In this document: in pieces, positions 41,915 through 50,424 of the stretch
Numbering within the stretch: the stretch's first letter is position 1
Layout of the letters: every line of letters starts with the position of its first letter
Source: Sphingomonas sp. Leaf357
GTDB taxonomy: Bacteria > Pseudomonadota > Alphaproteobacteria > Sphingomonadales > Sphingomonadaceae
Direction: 5' to 3'
DNA: 64,000 nt
NCBI RefSeq assembly: GCF_001423845.1
Contig: NZ_LMPM01000001.1
Coordinates: 738,001-802,000 of the forward strand
Made by a program: the position numbers and the translations under genes
Notes under the pieces: model-generated
Told to the model about the DNA's origin: nothing
The model's database searches: none
The model's input: only the letters and a program-made list of their open reading frames with translations

Positions 41915-42478
41915 CGACGACTTCCATGTCGCGTCGCGCGGACGTGACCTGACGGATCATGAATGAACGGCCGGTCCCGGGAAACATCGATGGCTGCCTT
42001 GATGTCCGATTGTGGTGCTTGTCAGCCGAAAAAAACGATTGCGCGGCTGGCGCCCGGAGTGGGCTATTCACTTTTACATTTCAGGTGTCCGCTTTCGGTC
42101 GCTTGGGCCTATCGGCCGTCCTCGACAGAAAGGCTAACGAACGCAACGATCAGCCGGTTATGAAGTATTCTTAGAATTCCGGCTGATTTATTCAGACGAC
42201 TGAATTTCATGTGTGCGTGGGACGGATGCGGTGCGCTGGCGGCGGCGACCGTGAAGTTTCGACGCACCCCCCAGGGTCAGAGGCGAACTGCCAGCTCGGC
42301 GCGCTGCTTCGGTCCGGCGTGGCAGGGATTGCATAGGTCTGCAGGTTGGCCCCGTCCGAGAACAATCGCTCGTCTCCGTGATAAAGGCGGACGTTATCAT
42401 CGACAAGCAACTTGATGTTGCCCTCGGTACAACCGCCGACTGGCGTTTAACTTCTTTAGGGGATCTGGGCTATGTTTC

Positions 42479-42670
42479 TTAAGCAAGGGAAGAGGGTGCT
42501 TCCGCCGTTTTCACAGATACCGGTCGAATTACGGCGGAAAATGCTCGTTTTGCTTCACGCTTCCGCTCGCGATCATAGGTCCGGCGCTTCTCGGCCACCG
42601 GGTCGGCCGTCGTGACTGGCTGCGCCGCTTCCATCTCTGTCCCAGCGCGCACGAGATCATCGCCAGACAC
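42479..42670 (-). CDS. Possible small basic protein, 63 aa (doubtful)
   Basis: A GTG-started frame gives an acidic-to-basic peptide with the strongly charged run EKRRTYDRERKREAKRAFSA. Similar charged tails occur in small replication or mobile-element proteins, but I cannot name one. The ribosome-binding site is poor, and it may be a remnant. Confidence 0.25.
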   Translation of the reverse strand: MSGDDLVRAGTEMEAAQPVTTADPVAEKRRTYDRERKREAKRAFSAVIRPVSVKTAEAPSSLA

Positions 42671-43009
42671 GCCGGCGGCAATCGGTGTTTCAGGGCTACT
42701 GCACTAACGCTCATGCTATCGAGAGGCTCTTGATGCTCTGACGGTATCGCGCGCGATCGTCAGCTGCGCTCTCGCAGCGCGCCGTAGCGCGATTGAGCCT
42801 GCGGCGCGCAGTAGTCTCTCGCCGCCTAGACATCAATTTTGAAGTTTAGCTACTGTTAGGAAGCGGCATTCCCAAGGCGTGAAGAAATCGCCCAATCCTA
42901 TGCAGAGGGTGGCACAACTTCGAGGTTCGAGAGCGTAGAGCGCCCATTCCGCGCCCAGCCGGATAGCAACGGCAGCACCTCCGGCGGCTAAGTCTTTGAA
43001 AAGATTGGT

Positions 43010-43091
43010 GCGCCCGACATGAAAGCGATGGGCACTCAGATCATTGGGAAATTCTCGTCCTGAGGGCAGGTTGATGGCTGTTCTGCGCCCC
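43010..43091 (+). repeat. Dispersed direct repeat, left copy (flanks hipA-like module)
   Basis: The core at 43024-43055 matches 45732-45763 in 30 of 32 bases, in the same orientation, and weaker similarity extends to about 82 bp (GCGCCCGACATG at the left, TGCGCCC at the right). In the plus frame both copies keep MxAMGTQxIGKF, so the repeat may derive from a coding fragment. Confidence 0.8.
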
Positions 43092-43366
43092 ATCCCCGTC
43101 GTTCAGCCTTTCCAGCACCGCGCCTAAAGGCGTGATCTGTTCATGTGACCGCGCGAGAACGGATTAAGGAAAACCCAACGGTCCGCTTTCGAGCGCGATC
43201 CCGCTGACACGACGCCAGGTCAAGCTTTAAGGACAATAGCGGCGATAAGAATGCCATTGTAAGCGTAGCCTGACGAATTTAACCTTTAGTCGGATGTTAA
43301 GACGTAAAAATTGCTATTCGAGCGCCACATTTGAAAAACAGCTTTCCTCGCCTGGAAGGGCTCACA

Positions 43367-43424
43367 TGACAATCTTTATTGACATTTGAAGGTCTCAATG
43401 TGATTATCGCGGTCAAGATTGACA
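43367..43424 (+). promoter_or_regulatory. Candidate operators around the hipA-like promoter
   Basis: TGACAATCTT (43367-43376) and AAGATTGACA (43415-43424) are inverted with one mismatch and bracket the promoter. Inside it, ACATT (43382-43386) and AATGT (43397-43401) form a perfect inverted repeat in the -35/-10 spacer. Either could bind the HTH protein encoded by the second gene. Confidence 0.45.
43379..43407 (+). promoter_or_regulatory. Strong housekeeping-type promoter of the hipA-like operon
   Basis: TTGACA (43379-43384), a 17-base spacer, then GATTAT (43402-43407). The -35 is a perfect consensus match and the -10 has four of six. It sits 26 bp before the ATG and is AT-rich compared with the region. 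Confidence 0.6.
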
Positions 43425-43433
43425 GGAGGCGTC

Positions 43434-44609
43434 ATGCCCGATCGCGCTGCCACCGTTACCTACAAGGGAGCAATCGCTGGCGAGCTTAGCGAGTTGGAGA
43501 GCCGTGATACAAGGTTTGTGTACATTGAGGGCTGGCAGACGCAGATCGCGTGTGCGTTGCCGGTTGAGCAACCAGACCATTACTACCGTGGCGGTCTCAT
43601 ACCCTTTTTCGAGCATCTTGGTCCGGAAGGATGGCTACGCGGCAGGCAGGCGCGGGCAGGAGGCACAGCAGAGCAGGACGACTTTGGCCTGCTTTTGAAC
43701 TACGGGGCCGACTGCATTGGCGCGGTCGGCATCGTTCCTGCTGACGGCAGCGCACTTATAGCGCCCGATGAGCCGAATGCTCTTGAGGAAGCGGCAGCCC
43801 TCCCCGGCCGGACCCTTTCGGGCGTGCAGAAAAAGCTTCTCGCCTATCGCGGTGAAACGGGCTTTGAGCCATGCGTTCGAGCGAGCGACCCTGCAACGCA
43901 CATCGCCAAGTTCAATCGGGAAGATCTGCCAACGCTCGTGCAGAATGAAAATCTGTCGCTCGAGCTCGCACGTGAAATCCTCGGGGAGGCAGAGATCACC
44001 AAGGCAAAGCCTGCCCGGCTCGCCGGCATCGATGGCCTTGCGCTACTGGTCGAACGCTTCGATCGCGCAGGCGAGGAAAAGCTGAGGCTTGAAGATTTTG
44101 CCCAGATCCTCGGCAAGCCCCGCGGCCGACAGTTCGATGGAAAATATGACTCGTCCTATGAAGAAGCCGCGAGCGTAATCGCGCGCTTCTCAGCGCGGGC
44201 ACGTATCGATCTCGCACGCTACTATCGGCTGGTGATCTTCAACCTCGTGCTCGGCAACGCCGATGCGCACCTCAAGAACTTCTCGTTACTCGAAAGCAGC
44301 AGCGGGCTTCGCCTTAGCCCCGCCTATGACCTGATAAACACACTCGTCTATCCCAATTACGAACGCATCGCTGCGCTCGCAATCGATGGCCAGAAGCGGC
44401 CCTTCGATACTCTCGACCGATCGACAGTCGAGAAGCTTGGCGTTTCGATTGGCCTGCCTTCGCAAGAGGTAGGTCGGTCGCTCGACAGTCTCGCGAAAGC
44501 CTTCGCCAGCGCCCGGACCATTGAGTTCGGACCCCGCGTCGAACCTGACGATTTTCGTATCAACTATCGCGAAGTCATTCGCGAGAATGCCGCAAGGATC
44601 TTCGCATGA
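43434..44609 (+). CDS. HipA-family serine/threonine kinase (toxin-like)
   Basis: This 391-residue HipA-like kinase has an N-terminal subdomain (about 1-100, with GELSELESRDTRFVYIEGW and PFFEHLGPEGWL) and a kinase domain. The glycine-loop region reads RTLSGVQKKLLAYRGETG, the catalytic loop LGNADAHLKNFSLLE (Asp and Asn present), and the metal-binding Asp is in LSPAYDLINTLVY. E. coli HipA phosphorylates glutamyl-tRNA synthetase; the target here is unknown. I use the ATG at 43434 behind a strong CAGGAGG. The kinase gene comes first and the HTH gene second, overlapping by ATGA. Toxicity must be assumed, not shown. Confidence 0.9.
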   Translation: MPDRAATVTYKGAIAGELSELESRDTRFVYIEGWQTQIACALPVEQPDHYYRGGLIPFFEHLGPEGWLRGRQARAGGTAEQDDFGLLLNYGADCIGAVGIVPADGSALIAPDEPNALEEAAALPGRTLSGVQKKLLAYRGETGFEPCVRASDPATHIAKFNREDLPTLVQNENLSLELAREILGEAEITKAKPARLAGIDGLALLVERFDRAGEEKLRLEDFAQILGKPRGRQFDGKYDSSYEEAASVIARFSARARIDLARYYRLVIFNLVLGNADAHLKNFSLLESSSGLRLSPAYDLINTLVYPNYERIAALAIDGQKRPFDTLDRSTVEKLGVSIGLPSQEVGRSLDSLAKAFASARTIEFGPRVEPDDFRINYREVIRENAARIFA

Positions 44610-45589
44610 CCGAATGGCCAATCGACTGGCGCGCCGTTGTCGACGAAGCGGTTCGGCGCCGCAAGGCAGAGAGTCTGACCCAATCAGATCTGGCAGCGCT
44701 GGCAGGTGTAAGCCGACCAGTGGTCGTCGCCTTCGAGCAAGGCGAAATCAATCTCAGGTTCGAGCGTGTCGTGGCTGTCCTCGATGCCTTGGGCCTGTTC
44801 GTCCAGCCGGGCCGCTCGGATAGCCTGCAGTCGTTCGTGCACGAAGCCCGCAAGCGTTTCGTCGAGCTGACTGCCGACCTCGACGAAGACCACCCCTCGC
44901 GGCAGGGGTATGGTCATAGCGAACAGGCCTATTCCATCGATGGCGTCGATGCCTTGCCGTCGCTCGCCCAGCTAAAGACTATTCTCGCGCACGCCCCCAA
45001 GACCTCGGGCTGGACGCCGTTTTGGGTGCCGACCAAGGAGACGATCAAGCCGGCATTCTACGAAGGCCTAATCGAGTGTTGGCTCGGTCGCCCTTCGAAT
45101 GATCGCGTCTTCAACGACGCGGCCCATAGCGACTTCTGGCAAGTCGCCCGCGACGGCACGGCCTATCTCCAGCGAGGGTACCAGGAAGATGGGCGTGATT
45201 TCGATCCTGGCACTTTTTTCGACCTGACCTTGCCGATCTGGCGCACCGCCGAAGTGCTCGTGCATGCCGCTTGGCTTGCGCGCGAGCTCGGTGCCGGGGC
45301 GGCAGACCCGATCCGGTTCGTCGCGAGGTACACTGGTCTATCTGGGCGCGAACTTATCAGCTGGGCGAAACCCGGGCTAAGGCTGGCGATAGATGAACGT
45401 CTGCGGGCACGCGCCGACAGCGTCGATCTGACCACACTCACGAGCGCGGGAGAAATCGACAAACAGCTCGAGAAGGTAGTCGGCACGATCGTGCGGCCGC
45501 TGTATGAACGCTTCGACGGGTTCGAACCCGCAGAATCTTTGATCGCGGGACAGATCGCCGACTTCAGGCGGCAACTGCAAGACTTCTGA
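44606..45589 (+). CDS. HipB-like HTH protein with a large C-terminal domain
   Basis: This 327-residue protein starts at the ATGA overlap with the hipA-like gene. Residues 1-70 are an XRE/HipB helix-turn-helix (SLTQSDLAALAGVSRPVVVA, FEQGEINLRFERVVAVLDAL). The remaining 250 residues are far more than a HipB antitoxin has. They contain TSGWTPFWVPTKETIKPAFY, HSDFWQVARDGTAYLQRGYQ, TLPIWRTAEVLVHAAWLARE and RYTGLSGRELISWAKPG. From memory, this block resembles the C-terminal domain that follows AlbA_2 (Schlafen-type) DNA-binding domains in other bacteria, but I could not verify that. It is probably both autorepressor and antitoxin, and the role of the extra domain is unknown. Confidence 0.85.
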   Translation: MTEWPIDWRAVVDEAVRRRKAESLTQSDLAALAGVSRPVVVAFEQGEINLRFERVVAVLDALGLFVQPGRSDSLQSFVHEARKRFVELTADLDEDHPSRQGYGHSEQAYSIDGVDALPSLAQLKTILAHAPKTSGWTPFWVPTKETIKPAFYEGLIECWLGRPSNDRVFNDAAHSDFWQVARDGTAYLQRGYQEDGRDFDPGTFFDLTLPIWRTAEVLVHAAWLARELGAGAADPIRFVARYTGLSGRELISWAKPGLRLAIDERLRARADSVDLTTLTSAGEIDKQLEKVVGTIVRPLYERFDGFEPAESLIAGQIADFRRQLQDF

Positions 45590-46080
45590 CACTCGTTGCG
45601 CTGGCCGTAAGTTGGCGAGCGGGGTTGGTTTGCTTCCCGACGCAACCCGCCATTCTGCAACCGGCAAAGTTCAAGCTACTCCGTGCCCAACGCTTTCCTA
45701 AACGGTCCATTTTTGGCGCACCGGACATGATAGCGATGGGCACTCAAATGATTGGGAAATTCTGCTTCCGCGAGCAGCGTGACGGCAGTTATGCGCCCTA
45801 TTATCGGCCGTTGGGCCGGACGACCGTCGAAGCCGAAGCCGCCGTTCATTTTCCAACAAACAAGGCGACGGGAATTTCTGGCTTCGGGGATTTGCGGTTC
45901 GCCAGATTCACGCAGACCTCTAGTCCTAATACAGCGGAAGGCCAATCAAGGTGCGCGACGTCGGGAAGCTTGCGCTTGTGACTTCCTCCGATAGCAATCT
46001 CAGAGAGCCGGCTGAAGGCGACATGTGCGTCAACGAATATACATAAGGGCAATGAATTATATTGAGGTCAGTGATTTTCC
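45590..46080. other. 490-bp stretch with the right repeat copy, no confident gene
   Basis: It contains the second copy of the direct repeat (45717-45801) and AT-rich sequence towards 46080. Overlapping short frames exist on both strands (45625-45981 plus, 45676-45945 minus), but neither has a recognisable product and both run through the repeat. Confidence 0.55.
45717..45801 (+). repeat. Dispersed direct repeat, right copy (flanks hipA-like module)
   Basis: Core 45732-45763 is 30/32 identical to 43024-43055 in direct orientation. Weaker similarity runs from GCGCACCGGACATG to ATGCGCCC. Together the two copies bracket the hipA-like gene pair and 2.7 kb of DNA. Confidence 0.8.
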
Positions 46081-46679
46081 ATGACATACGCGCATACGAC
46101 TAGCAGTCCCGCCCTCCGGGCCCCTCAATCGCAACCTCGGCACCCCGCCGTCCGCAACCGCCGGGCGGCGGGTTCGCCACGTGTGCACCACTTTGGCAAA
46201 AGTCTGGCGCTCTCGAACTGGTATGTAGACGCCGACTGGTGGATGCCGATGTATCAGAAGGCATTCCCGACATTGGTGTCGGCGGTAGCGGTGCGAGAAG
46301 ACGGATGGGCGCAGCGCGGTGGGATCGATCGCCTGCTTACGCTGGCGTGCGGGCGCACCTACACTGTGGACGAGAAGGTGCGCACCGCCGACTGGCCCGA
46401 TGTGCTGTTGGAGCGTTGGTCGGACGAGGCCCGCAAAGCTCCAGGCTGGGTGCAGAAACCGTTAGCGTGCGACTTCATCGCCTACGCCTTCGCTCCGGCC
46501 GGCACGTGTCTTTTGCTCCCGGTCGCTGCGCTACAACGTGCCTGGCGTCAGCATGGCCGGCAATGGATCGCGATTTACGAACGCGGCTTGCTCATAACCC
46601 TGGCTATGTGTCCGTTGGCGTTCCCGTCCCGCGCGGTGTGCTGATGCAGGCGTTGGTCGAGGCGATGATCGTTTCGTAA
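46081..46679 (+). pseudogene. Possible PD-(D/E)xK-like nuclease gene with a 3' frameshift
   Basis: The ATG frame encodes 187 residues to 46644. After a low-complexity start (about 1-35), a globular part reads HFGKSLALSNWYVDADWWMP, GGIDRLLTLACGRTYTVDEK and DVLLERWSDEARKAPGWVQK. Asp followed by DEK 13 residues later fits the Asp...(D/E)xK nuclease pattern, an inference from two motifs. Near 46585 the sensible protein continues in another frame: YERG, then LAHNPGYVSVGVPVPRGVLM and QALVEAMIVS to the stop at 46679. One missing base around GGCTTGCT explains it. The as-read product ends in an unrelated 18-residue tail. Confidence 0.65.
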
Positions 46680-46872
46680 CTGCGTGGCTATGTCAGCGGA
46701 CGAATGGCACTGATCGCTCACCGGAAAAGCCTGAAAATAATTCGCTAACAATAGCGATCAAAACTGAGTCAATTAATTCGCTGCGGTTCTCGATAACGAA
46801 ACTGGCAGATTTCCGTGGCTTTCTTGGCTTTTATCCCGCGATAAAAATCGGCAATCCAATGTGGGTCAAATC

Positions 46873-48318
46873 CTACGCCCACCATGGCACATAGCCGCTA
46901 CGTGGCGCCGCGTCGTCTGCGAGCTTGATATATCTCGCTTCGAGCGTCTGCTTAAAAACTCGTGAGATTTGCGCGGCATTCCCCGTCTCAATGTCAAGGC
47001 GCTCGCGTAACGAGGCATTGGTTGCGCGTTCCCCCTCCAAAAACCGGAGTGTGGCATGTTGATAGCATGCTCGTGTCCGCTCGGAAGGCGTCATGTCTGC
47101 GAATGGGCGGGGTCCGTACAGCGTTACCCGCATCGCGCCTTCAAGCTGAATAAAGTCGGGCGGGGGCAATTTGCTTTTCTCCGCTTCGTAGACGACCTTA
47201 TCGATCCCGCTTCCTCGCTCCTCACAAATGTTCATCCTGCGCATTAAAGACGCCATGCCTTCGTTGCGCGATCGTGGTGGGTAATCGATAAAACGATTTG
47301 GATCCACGAGGGGTTTGCCTGGATTCGTGATCTCAATCCGATTGTCGAAAATCTCGATCATTGGCCCGGTGCCACTAATGGTCATATCCTGATGGATCAG
47401 GGCATTGGCAACCAATTCTCGGATTGATAATTCCGAAAACGGCGATACCTCTTCTCGAAAGGCTTTGCCTATGCGCTCGCGCTTCGGAAGATAAAAATCC
47501 ACCACGGAAACAAGCGGCTCAAACGCTTTCGCGTATCCGAAATCGCCCGTTCGCTCCTTAACCGTCTCGACCCGCGTGTCGCCTACGTAGCGAATAACAC
47601 GCGGTGCCTTACGTTCGAGGCGATCGAAATCTTTAAGGCGCTCTGCGAAAAGAACAGCGCCTAGGTTGAGGATGTTCCAGTAGCCCCCGCCGTCTTCAGC
47701 GATAAGCCGGTCGGCAGAGAGGGTGGCCAGAATGTCGGCGTGGGAATCGGGTATCGGTTGCTTCAAAAGCTCAAAATACGACGCGTAATCGAGCATTTCC
47801 AACACTCGATCTGGCGTAACAAATTGCGATGCGACCCCTTCTTCCCAACGATACGACTGGATAATCGACCAAAGTCGCTGCTCGAGTTCGGGATGGTCGG
47901 ACAGAGCGGGAGTGGCATCACCGATCCTGATGTAAGATTTACCTTCGAACCGAACCGGAGCGCTGGACGCGGCTTTCACCCTAAGGATTACGACCCGGAC
48001 GCCTTCCTTTTGCAGATCTTGAAAGTCGATGTGCGGCATCGGATCCGTTTGGCGAGAAAGCCAAAATTCCAAAGACTGGTTACCGCGCTTTGCGACCGAA
48101 GGCTCAAAATCGGTTCCGACGAGGTTCTTCGTTCCATCTTCGATTCCCCAAACGAGGTATCCGAATGGCTCTTCGTCGAGCGCGGCCGCGTTGCTCAGGG
48201 CAGAAATGTAACGCCCGATACGATCGGGGTCCGTATTGTTCGCTTTAAACTCGATCCAATCTCGCTCAGGCTTGCTGAGAATATGATCGAGCAGGGTATG
48301 TAGGCGTTCTGGCGACAT
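46873..48318 (-). CDS. Schlafen AlbA_2 domain ATP-binding protein
   Basis: This 481-residue protein has an N-terminal AlbA_2 (Schlafen-like) domain: RDWIEFKANNTDPDRIGRYI with SALSNAAALDEEPFGYLVWG, and SYIRIGDATPALSD. Its GHKL-like ATPase region is FSELSIRELVANALIHQDMT, IEIFDNRIEITNPGKPLVDP, GMASLMRRMNICEERGSGID. A winged-helix tail follows (NASLRERLDIETGNAAQISR). Such proteins are common in mobile islands and have been proposed as regulators or defence factors; no reaction is established. The frame ends beside the nuclease-like gene and starts 80 bp from the excisionase-like gene. Confidence 0.9.
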   Translation of the reverse strand: MSPERLHTLLDHILSKPERDWIEFKANNTDPDRIGRYISALSNAAALDEEPFGYLVWGIEDGTKNLVGTDFEPSVAKRGNQSLEFWLSRQTDPMPHIDFQDLQKEGVRVVILRVKAASSAPVRFEGKSYIRIGDATPALSDHPELEQRLWSIIQSYRWEEGVASQFVTPDRVLEMLDYASYFELLKQPIPDSHADILATLSADRLIAEDGGGYWNILNLGAVLFAERLKDFDRLERKAPRVIRYVGDTRVETVKERTGDFGYAKAFEPLVSVVDFYLPKRERIGKAFREEVSPFSELSIRELVANALIHQDMTISGTGPMIEIFDNRIEITNPGKPLVDPNRFIDYPPRSRNEGMASLMRRMNICEERGSGIDKVVYEAEKSKLPPPDFIQLEGAMRVTLYGPRPFADMTPSERTRACYQHATLRFLEGERATNASLRERLDIETGNAAQISRVFKQTLEARYIKLADDAAPRSGYVPWWA

Positions 48319-48400
48319 CGCCTGGTGTTAGTTGCACATCATGTAAATGCCAATCGGCCATGCATTGCTATCGCCACAGCCTCGATTTGAAAACCTTGGC

Positions 48401-49045
48401 TTAGGCTTTTCCTCCGACCACCAACACCCTGATGCTCTCAGTTGTAGTAAGCGTCCGCGTATCATTCTTGACCCTGACTAATGTGCCCTTGATCATCATG
48501 TCGTTGATCTTCGTGCGACCAAGGCCGAGCGCCGCCATCGCTTGGTTCACGGTGACGGTGAGCGCGCCATGGGGGATTGCCGCCGGATCGGACTGACGAG
48601 CTTTCGCCGGTGCATCTGCTGACGCTGCGATCTCGCATAAGACCGGCTGACCTACGGATGTCTTCGCCTTTGGCTTTGTCGAAACCTGGCCACGATGATG
48701 TTCGATCGTCTGATGCAGGTGCTTCGCCGCAAAGCCGATCCCGGTAATGCGAACGGCCGGCGCGCCGCCAATCAGATCAGCGGCAGGGAGCCGCACAGTG
48801 CCCCCGGTCCATACATCCTCGACTACCCCTTCGCGGATGATCCGCTGCCACAGATCCACGGGCACAGCCGCGCCCAGCACTCGATCCCTCCCGCCGGCAA
48901 CCGGCTCAGTCTCGATGACGCGCGCATATGATTTGACCAAGCCAGCCGCCGCGTTGTCGGAGATGACGCGGCGAGCGTACAAAATGCCGGCGCTTTCGAC
49001 GAGTTCGACCGCCTTGATCGGCGAGATGGGAACGACTGCGGTCAA
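48401..49045 (-). CDS. Hypothetical protein with excisionase/AlpA-like C-terminal HTH
   Basis: This 214-residue protein uses a TTG start at 49045 behind GGAGATCG. The N-terminal 130 residues (AAGLVKSYARVIETEPVAGG, AVPVDLWQRIIREGVVEDVW) have no assignment. The last 50 residues read HGALTVTVNQAMAALGLGRT, KINDMMIKGTLVRVKNDTRT, a pattern like the winged HTH of excisionases and AlpA-type regulators. Its position, 215 bp from the 3' end of tRNA-Arg, is where island excision functions are often encoded. No integrase is present. Confidence 0.65.
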   Translation of the reverse strand: MTAVVPISPIKAVELVESAGILYARRVISDNAAAGLVKSYARVIETEPVAGGRDRVLGAAVPVDLWQRIIREGVVEDVWTGGTVRLPAADLIGGAPAVRITGIGFAAKHLHQTIEHHRGQVSTKPKAKTSVGQPVLCEIAASADAPAKARQSDPAAIPHGALTVTVNQAMAALGLGRTKINDMMIKGTLVRVKNDTRTLTTTESIRVLVVGGKA

Positions 49046-49260
49046 AACGATCTCCGTCGCTGGCCGGGGAAGGCCGTTCGCACCTTCATTGCAGTGAGTA
49101 GTGAAAACTTCGCTACGCGCGACTGCACTTCGCTAGTTATAGCCGACCTGTTCGCCGCTGTTCGCGGGCAGTCGATGCCAAGTGTGGGAGCCGATGAGGT
49201 AGCGTGAACGAATCCATTGCTAAATTCGGCAGCATTTACATCATCTTGCGGAGAGGACGG
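49046..49260. other. Intergenic DNA between the island and tRNA-Arg
   Basis: This 215-bp region is less GC-rich (for example around 49220-49245) and contains no gene I can support. It is the sequence immediately beyond the 3' end of the tRNA gene, where an attachment site would be expected. I see no long duplication of the tRNA 3' end here. Confidence 0.5.
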
Positions 49261-49337
<77 letters not shown>

Positions 49338-49382
49338 CGATGCGGGGCTTGCCTAGCAAAGCTGTGCGGCGCGCGCCAGCGT

Positions 49383-49763
49383 TTAACGTCTGGGCTTCTT
49401 CACCATCGTCACCGGCTGGAACTGGCCGAGGCCGCAACTGGCGCCGCGGCTGACCGGCGGGTTTTCGATCACGGTGATGATATCGACCGAACAGAGCTGG
49501 CTGAGCGACGTTTCGTAGGCAAAGGCTTCGCGGAAGCCGAGGCCGGGGCAGGCGTTGGGCAGGGTGTTGCGGTAGACCTTGCCGCCGGTCGTCTCGAAAT
49601 CGATCACGCGGTCGCCATGGACATGGGTGGCGCGGATGCGCGGGATCGAAAGGCAGCTTTCCGGTTTGCCGGCCGCCACGGCCTCGGGGATCCGGCTGCG
49701 GTCGCGCGCCATGCCGGGGGCGGTGAGGGCGATCGCGGTGAGCGCGAGGACGGTTCTACGCAT
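49383..49763 (-). CDS. Small secreted protein (DUF6491-like)
   Basis: This 126-residue protein starts [20 protein letters not shown], a signal peptide. The mature part has conserved-looking stretches [36 protein letters not shown] and [15 protein letters not shown] with several Cys. It resembles the DUF6491 family known to me from sphingomonads; the assignment is from memory. The function is unknown, but it is probably periplasmic. The first eight bases overlap the end of nth, so the two are probably co-transcribed. Confidence 0.75.
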
Positions 49764-50424
49764 GGGCTCTCTCCTCGCCCGTCGGCTTCGGCGCGGGCGT
49801 CTTGGGCTTGAACGCACAGAGATCGACGACGATGCACCGCCAGCATTCCGGCCGCCTGGCCTTGCAGACATAGCGGCCGTGCAGGATCAGCCAGTGGTGC
49901 GCGTGCAGGCGGAAGGGCTGCGGCGTCGCTTTGTCGAGCTTGAGTTCCACCGCCAGCGGGGTCTTGCCACGGGCGAGACCGGTGCGGTTGCCGACGCGGA
50001 AGATGTGCGTGTCGACCGCGAACGTATCCTGTCCGAACGCCACGTTGAGCACGACATTGGCGGTCTTGCGTCCGACACCGGGCAGGCGTTCGAGCGCGTC
50101 GCGGTCGTTCGGCACCACGCCGCCGAACTCGTCGATCAGCATCCGCGACAGAGCGATGACGTTCTTCGCCTTGGTGTTGAACAGGCCGATCGTCTTGATG
50201 TGTTGCTTCAGGCCCGCCTCGCCCAGCGCGAGCATCTTCTGCGGCGTATCGACCTCGGCGAACAAGGCTCGAGTGGCCTTGTTGACGCCGACATCGGTGG
50301 CCTGCGCGGAGAGGGCGACGGCGACGACCAATTGAAAGGGATTGCCGTATGCGAGTTCGGTCTCGGGATGCGGATCGTGTTCGGCGAGGCGGCGGTAGAA
50401 TTCGAAAACGTCTGTCTGCTTCAT
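49756..50424 (-). CDS. nth: Endonuclease III
   Basis: This 222-residue DNA glycosylase/AP lyase for oxidised pyrimidines starts [20 protein letters not shown]. The helix-hairpin-helix with catalytic Lys ([20 protein letters not shown] for the first helix, [20 protein letters not shown] for the hairpin) and the catalytic Asp in [17 protein letters not shown] are clear. The [4Fe-4S] cysteines lie in [17 protein letters not shown] at the C terminus. Size is standard. It follows dapB closely on the same strand. Confidence 0.96.

Follow-up and report, generated by a model that had tools for sequence, protein, structure and literature searches.

The question raised by a two-gene locus of Sphingomonas sp. 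Leaf357 is what a HipA-type kinase does beside a helix-turn-helix (HTH) partner protein that extends some 250 residues beyond its HTH. The locus lies in a 64,000-nucleotide stretch of contig NZ_LMPM01000001.1 (positions 738,001 to 802,000), referred to here as the window, whose numbering is used throughout. The first gene (43434..44609, plus strand; 391 amino acids, ATG start) encodes a HipA-family Ser/Thr kinase with Couple_hipA and HipA_C domains, the predicted toxin. The second (44606..45589, plus strand; 327 amino acids) encodes a HipB-type HTH joined to a new C-terminal domain, and is the predicted antitoxin, autorepressor and sensor. The two open reading frames (ORFs) overlap at ATGA, with the kinase ending at 44609 and the partner starting at 44606; the order, the overlap and the length of the partner are as described in a first-pass annotation of this DNA. 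On balance, comparison with related loci leads us to favour the reading that the HipA-type toxin is held by an antitoxin made of an HTH and a sensor, which would free the kinase upon phage infection, probably in defence against phages. Four features were observed directly: the gene layout, the conserved pairing of kinase and partner, the occurrence of the partner's C-terminal domain in AlbA_2 proteins, and the joining of that domain in some relatives, by fusion or as a neighbour, to PD-Lambda-4_A, which PADLOC lists as an anti-phage protein. This last link makes it likely that the pair is a toxin-antitoxin switch, predicted to release the kinase during phage attack.

The partner HTH (residues 17-64) matches TIGR03070 with an E value of 3.7e-15 and 55.6 bits, under the family cut-off of 71.65. 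The approximately 250 residues after the HTH have no Pfam match, and residues 74-327 (44825..45586, plus strand), here called the C-domain, have no sequence match in the PDB; residues 66-312 do match phrog_38563 (E 3e-15). Residues 74-327 are predicted to form a compact domain, AlphaFold2 giving a pLDDT of 94.4 and a pTM of 0.92 for the C-domain alone (43 sequences) and a pLDDT of 85.9 for the full-length partner. Residues 70-327 as query matched 524 proteins at E <= 0.001, and HTH domains were present in 116 of the best 120 of these. Scanning genome contigs with the partner yielded 32 loci, 18 of which (L002-L019) match from residue 1 or 5, HTH included. At the other 14 it starts no earlier than residue 66; the N termini of 8 of these were scanned and all 8 match SLFN_AlbA_2, 3 of them above the Pfam cut-off. 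The same N-terminal domain was found in four further C-domain proteins from genome searches, each time over the cut-off. The C-domain thus follows either an HTH or, in stand-alone proteins of about 450 residues, SLFN_AlbA_2. These profile searches confirm a resemblance to the domain behind AlbA_2 modules that the first-pass annotation had pointed out, and they bear out its view that the residues beyond the HTH exceed an ordinary HipB extension. No AlbA_2 was found by Pfam in the window partner itself, where an HTH takes its place and the C-terminal domain alone is in common. Near-invariant motifs among 20 C-domain sequences are GW..F, ECW, DAAHSDFW, GYQEDG, LPxWR and GLxGRxL; the H and S among these residues are lost in the copies fused to PD-Lambda-4_A.

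Loci other than that of the window (given L numbers below) were gathered by partner or C-domain searches and none by a kinase search. Before loci were counted and a tree was built, eight duplicates (L055, L056, L083, L092, L094, L099, L100 and L101) and four broken or weak loci (L030, L033, L090 and L091) were left out. A kinase gene lies directly upstream on the same strand at 35 of the 36 HTH-type loci, although that of L006 matches in pieces only. The sole locus without it, L102, has also lost the HTH; it was kept among the 36 and left out of the tree. No kinase was found beside any of 25 AlbA_2-type loci. The survey therefore upholds the suggestion that kinase and HTH partner are conserved as a pair. 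At two loci a second HipA-like kinase gene occurs downstream of the pair, 0.6 kb away in L085 (10508-11743) and 1.6 kb away in L017 (7612-8895).

The distribution of the C-domain is patchy. In many genomes the searches scored only a fraction of the initial candidates (for instance 6 of 26 for Leaf357), so that counts are lower bounds and absences are soft. With both forms and the Leaf357 genome counted, the C-domain is present in at least 11 of 396 genomes of the order, 13 of 397 of the family, 11 of 385 of the class and 4 of 398 of the phylum, in samples that overlap. Members of Sphingomonadales, Rhodospirillales and Hyphomicrobiales carry the pair, which is also present on plasmids, including pSymA of S. 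meliloti. The AlbA_2 form was seen on an archaeal plasmid of Haloarcula (L063, 5461-6798), and the C-domain thus occurs in both bacteria and archaea. A tree of 60 C-domains, with weak support for its deep branches, requires two changes between the HTH and AlbA_2 labels, versus 19.4 when the labels are shuffled, which indicates that exchange of the N-terminal part has been rare.

PD-Lambda-4_A is next after the partner at 6 of the 36 HTH-type loci: two are fusions, one is an intact separate gene and three are partial copies or remnants. In L046 (Sphingomonas donggukensis) it makes up residues 322-1571 of a 1573-residue HTH and C-domain protein (E 8e-193), and the same fusion is split over two frames in L047 (Sphingobium lignivorans). 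In L009 an intact gene (E 5e-201) immediately follows the partner; L006 retains the first 329 residues behind the partner, at 92% identity, and remnants lie at the corresponding position in L004 and L010. The linked loci fall within two separate clades of C-domains, one comprising L004, L006, L008, L009 and L010 and the other L046 and L047. PD-Lambda-4_A is uncommon in the order, being found in 5 of 196 genomes including that of L046, and this frequency alone was used to gauge the chance that it adjoins the pair. Neither the kinase nor the C-domain was found within the 15-17 kb around each of the four other copies, two of which are weak or partial matches. At a seventh locus, L005, the end of the partner is overlapped by a 1351-residue protein whose NACHT match is below threshold, and a PDC-S01 / AAA_14 ATPase follows; a HerA gene with a PADLOC match lies near the pair in L007. 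An ApeA-type protein (ApeA_NTD1, HEPN_Apea) is encoded on the minus strand of L046 (13883-15472) near the kinase and the fusion.

If the favoured reading holds, the HTH half would bind a candidate operator at 43366-43385, repress the operon and hold the kinase inactive. The C-domain would sense infection alone in bare pairs like that of the window and, where PD-Lambda-4_A is attached, through that ATPase. The freed kinase would then phosphorylate a translation factor, for example an aminoacyl-tRNA synthetase, the kind of target on which HipA and HipT act (PMC8262856), arresting growth and aborting the infection. A persistence-type kinase toxin would thereby be plugged into phage sensing via one swappable domain; the natural fusions predict that a defence ATPase and a HipA kinase act in one complex, and the domain family named here would also be relevant to AlbA_2 proteins. 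More tentatively, the C-domain may be a portable adaptor for sensing infection, which in its HTH form clamps a HipA kinase, in fusions wires that kinase to PD-Lambda-4_A, and elsewhere drives AlbA_2. In such fusions the kinase would do the killing for an immune sensor built on an ATPase, and AlbA_2 would be the module acting on nucleic acid in the stand-alone proteins.

Several observations weigh against a role in phage defence. At 29 of the 36 HTH-type loci no PD-Lambda-4_A was found, nor any sequence related to the NACHT-like protein of L005, the latter having been searched for at 35 of the 36. PD-Lambda-4_A has no match in the Leaf357 genome or in 42001-50000, and neither a remnant of it nor L005-type sequence was found beside the pair of the window. 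In L004, L006 and L010 PD-Lambda-4_A has decayed while the partner persists, indicating that the pair does not need it. Fold searches with the C-domain gave no confident match among solved structures, and so indicate no ligand. The partner had no match in 50,697 phage records; five C-domain loci are on viral contigs, one of them (L056) with the same partner as L018 and the other four of the AlbA_2 type. When six neighbouring genes at unlinked loci were scanned, the HerA gene of L007 was the only one with a PADLOC match, and on the plasmids whose annotation was consulted (7 of 35 records) the surrounding genes are mostly ordinary ones or those of mobile elements. The pair could instead be an ordinary chromosomal hipAB module of persistence or addiction, whose antitoxin senses a host metabolite or nucleotide rather than phage; we regard this as possible, if rather unlikely.

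Two further explanations assign the partner a different part. It might mainly regulate exchangeable downstream defence genes, with the kinase merely tuning it by phosphorylation. That would suit a protein composed of an HTH and a ligand-like domain, as well as the variation in the next gene among loci, which may be PD-Lambda-4_A, a NACHT-like ATPase or none; yet the fusions put partner and PD-Lambda-4_A into one polypeptide, and no HTH-type locus lacking the kinase was found save L102, which lost its HTH too, making this explanation improbable. Alternatively the roles could be swapped, the HTH and C-domain protein being harmful and the kinase restraining it. There is a precedent in PD-Lambda-2, whose HTH-peptidase protein is toxic and is rescued by the product of the first gene (PMC9519451), and the C-domain also follows AlbA_2 in genes that share no neighbour. 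In L006, however, the partner frame is open while the kinase matches only in pieces, a state that should be lethal were the kinase the antidote, and we consider a swap of roles very improbable.

The Pfam matches of the kinase protein itself are HipA_C (E 1.3e-43) and Couple_hipA (E 1.2e-17), the motifs SGVQKK, GNADAHLKN and SPAYDL are intact in the window copy, and it is the sole HipA_C match in the Leaf357 genome. Among PDB sequences, the closest to the kinase core is HipT of L. pneumophila (E 1.3e-27), and a Shewanella HipA matches over most of the length (E 1.4e-16). Of 35 kinase copies, 32 retain the catalytic NxDxHx(K/R)N, 33 retain SGxQxK and 23 fit a strict PxYD pattern.

The start of the kinase gene appears unusual in the relatives. 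In the window, AGGAGG precedes the ATG at 43434, and a TTG at 43419 shares its reading frame; an ATG with a good ribosome site sets this kinase apart from those of its sphingomonad relatives. Among 17 members of the sphingomonad clade, the codon aligned to this ATG is ATC in 13 and ATT in 1, the remaining three having GTC, CAT and TCG. For 9 of the 14 kinases with ATC or ATT there is no ATG, GTG or TTG from the upstream in-frame stop to residue 16, and in 5 of these 9 the next canonical start codon is residue 97. The other five have an upstream candidate start (L002, L011 and L097) or a GTG at residue 8 (L046 and L052). Ten related pairs were compared without gaps: in the six codons before the start, all three codon positions differ about equally often (0.45, 0.38, 0.45), and in codons 2-16 the differences fall mostly at third positions (0.09, 0.09, 0.32), which places the beginning of the coding sequence at codon 1 or very close to it. 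The likely explanation is that the kinases of sphingomonad relatives mostly use a putative non-canonical AUC or AUU start, which would keep kinase synthesis low. The kinases that seem to start in this way, with no canonical start nearby, are those of L003, L004, L007-L010, L053, L059 and L096; the annotation of L059 has a short HipA coding sequence of 786 bp.

Upstream of the kinase, a promoter-like sequence, TTGACA-17-GATTAT (43379..43407, plus strand), agrees with the consensus at 10 of 12 positions. The pair had been credited with its own consensus promoter; the sequence is there, but its score is at the level of chance, one being found where 1.3 are expected in shuffles, and it is not significant alone. 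The candidate operator is an inverted repeat with one mismatch, ATGACAA-N6-TTGACAT (43366..43385, plus strand), which overlaps the -35 hexamer and begins at -68 from the kinase start. Similar inverted repeats begin at -69 to -71 in L002, L003, L008, L046 and L047, so that 6 of 15 loci compared, in three clades, have a repeat at -68 to -71 with a spacer of 6-8, and the other 9 have none at the corresponding position. This position was noticed post hoc, and shuffles yield about 1 to 3 such repeats per 110-base stretch; as a candidate only, the recurring repeat suits autorepression by the HTH half of the partner. The pair is also flanked by direct repeats of 89 nt (43005..43093 and 45713..45801, both plus strand) that are 80% identical. 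These two copies are the only matches to the repeat reported in the Leaf357 genome, but its core is also present in many further genomes of the genus, each searched with three candidates scored. The direct repeats noted earlier therefore exist, but as a dispersed repeat and not as a boundary peculiar to the pair.

The surroundings include, on the upstream side, a gene conserved across the genus (approximately 41.1-41.9 kb) and, on the downstream side, tRNA-Arg(ccg) at 49261-49337. An SLFN_AlbA_2 and HATPase_c_4 protein (Pfam) is encoded on the minus strand at 46873-48318, 1.3 kb from the pair. The presence of this Schlafen-type neighbour had been correctly reported; it lends no support to the pair's interpretation, since the partner C-domain was not found in it (score -2.1 bits). 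No DNA match to its gene turned up in 80 further genomes of the genus, with three candidates scored in each; this would suit a possible accessory island at 42100-49261, adjoining the tRNA gene.

How far does this pair depart from known systems? As in HipA-HipB, a kinase with Couple_hipA, HipA_C and the kinase motifs adjoins a HipB-type HTH gene in one operon. The kinase-first order is that of hipAB clades VI and VII and of hipEB (PMC8262856). The likeness to these reversed operons is one of gene order; an HTH partner with the extra domain of the window was not found in the portion of that source consulted. Antitoxins with an HTH and a second domain are likewise known, namely HipR of hipRF and hipRG, and it has been hypothesised that phage proteins bind the second domain of HipR and free a Hip kinase (PMC8262856). 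That domain is predicted to be Stl-like, whereas that of the window belongs to a sequence family common to AlbA_2 proteins and gave no confident match in fold searches. The possible new toxin-antitoxin layout proposed in the first-pass annotation is accordingly better described as a variant than as a new kind. In HipBST (PDB 8ezr, 7vkb, 7ab3), which provides the HipT closest to the kinase core by sequence, HipS has a gene of its own and the order starts with the HTH gene (PMC8262856); in the window the kinase comes first, and HipS-like and kinase parts are on one 391-residue protein.

Two-gene systems of a HipA-like kinase and a non-canonical antitoxin have been shown to act against phages (HipAD, DS-6 and PDC-M66; PMC13092281, PMC12548924). 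With a DUF3037 partner the kinase is required, and removing the partner causes toxicity (PMC12548924); DS-6/HipAD defence likewise requires the kinase (PMC13092281). The HipAD-type partner has DUF3037 (and DUF1829), whereas that of the window has an HTH and the new domain; it has no Pfam match to DUF3037 or DUF1829, and the window no PADLOC match to PDC-M66, at E up to 1. PD-Lambda-2 resembles the pair as read here in that a toxin-like gene precedes an HTH protein with a large second domain and the system is anti-phage, and differs in its HigB-like toxin and peptidase domain (PMC9519451). PD-Lambda-4, which a table in PMC10952713 credits to Vassallo et al. 2022, contributes the PD-Lambda-4_A that is fused to or behind the partner in relatives and has no match in the Leaf357 genome. 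In the SLFN_AlbA_2 proteins of about 450 residues, relatives of phrog_38563, the C-domain is 34-40% identical to that of the window (seven examples), with AlbA_2 instead of the HTH and a kinase alongside in none of 25. A kinase gene placed first, an antitoxin of two domains and a HipA-like kinase that serves in phage defence thus each have a published precedent; new here are the antitoxin domain, which we have not found described, and its link to PD-Lambda-4_A.
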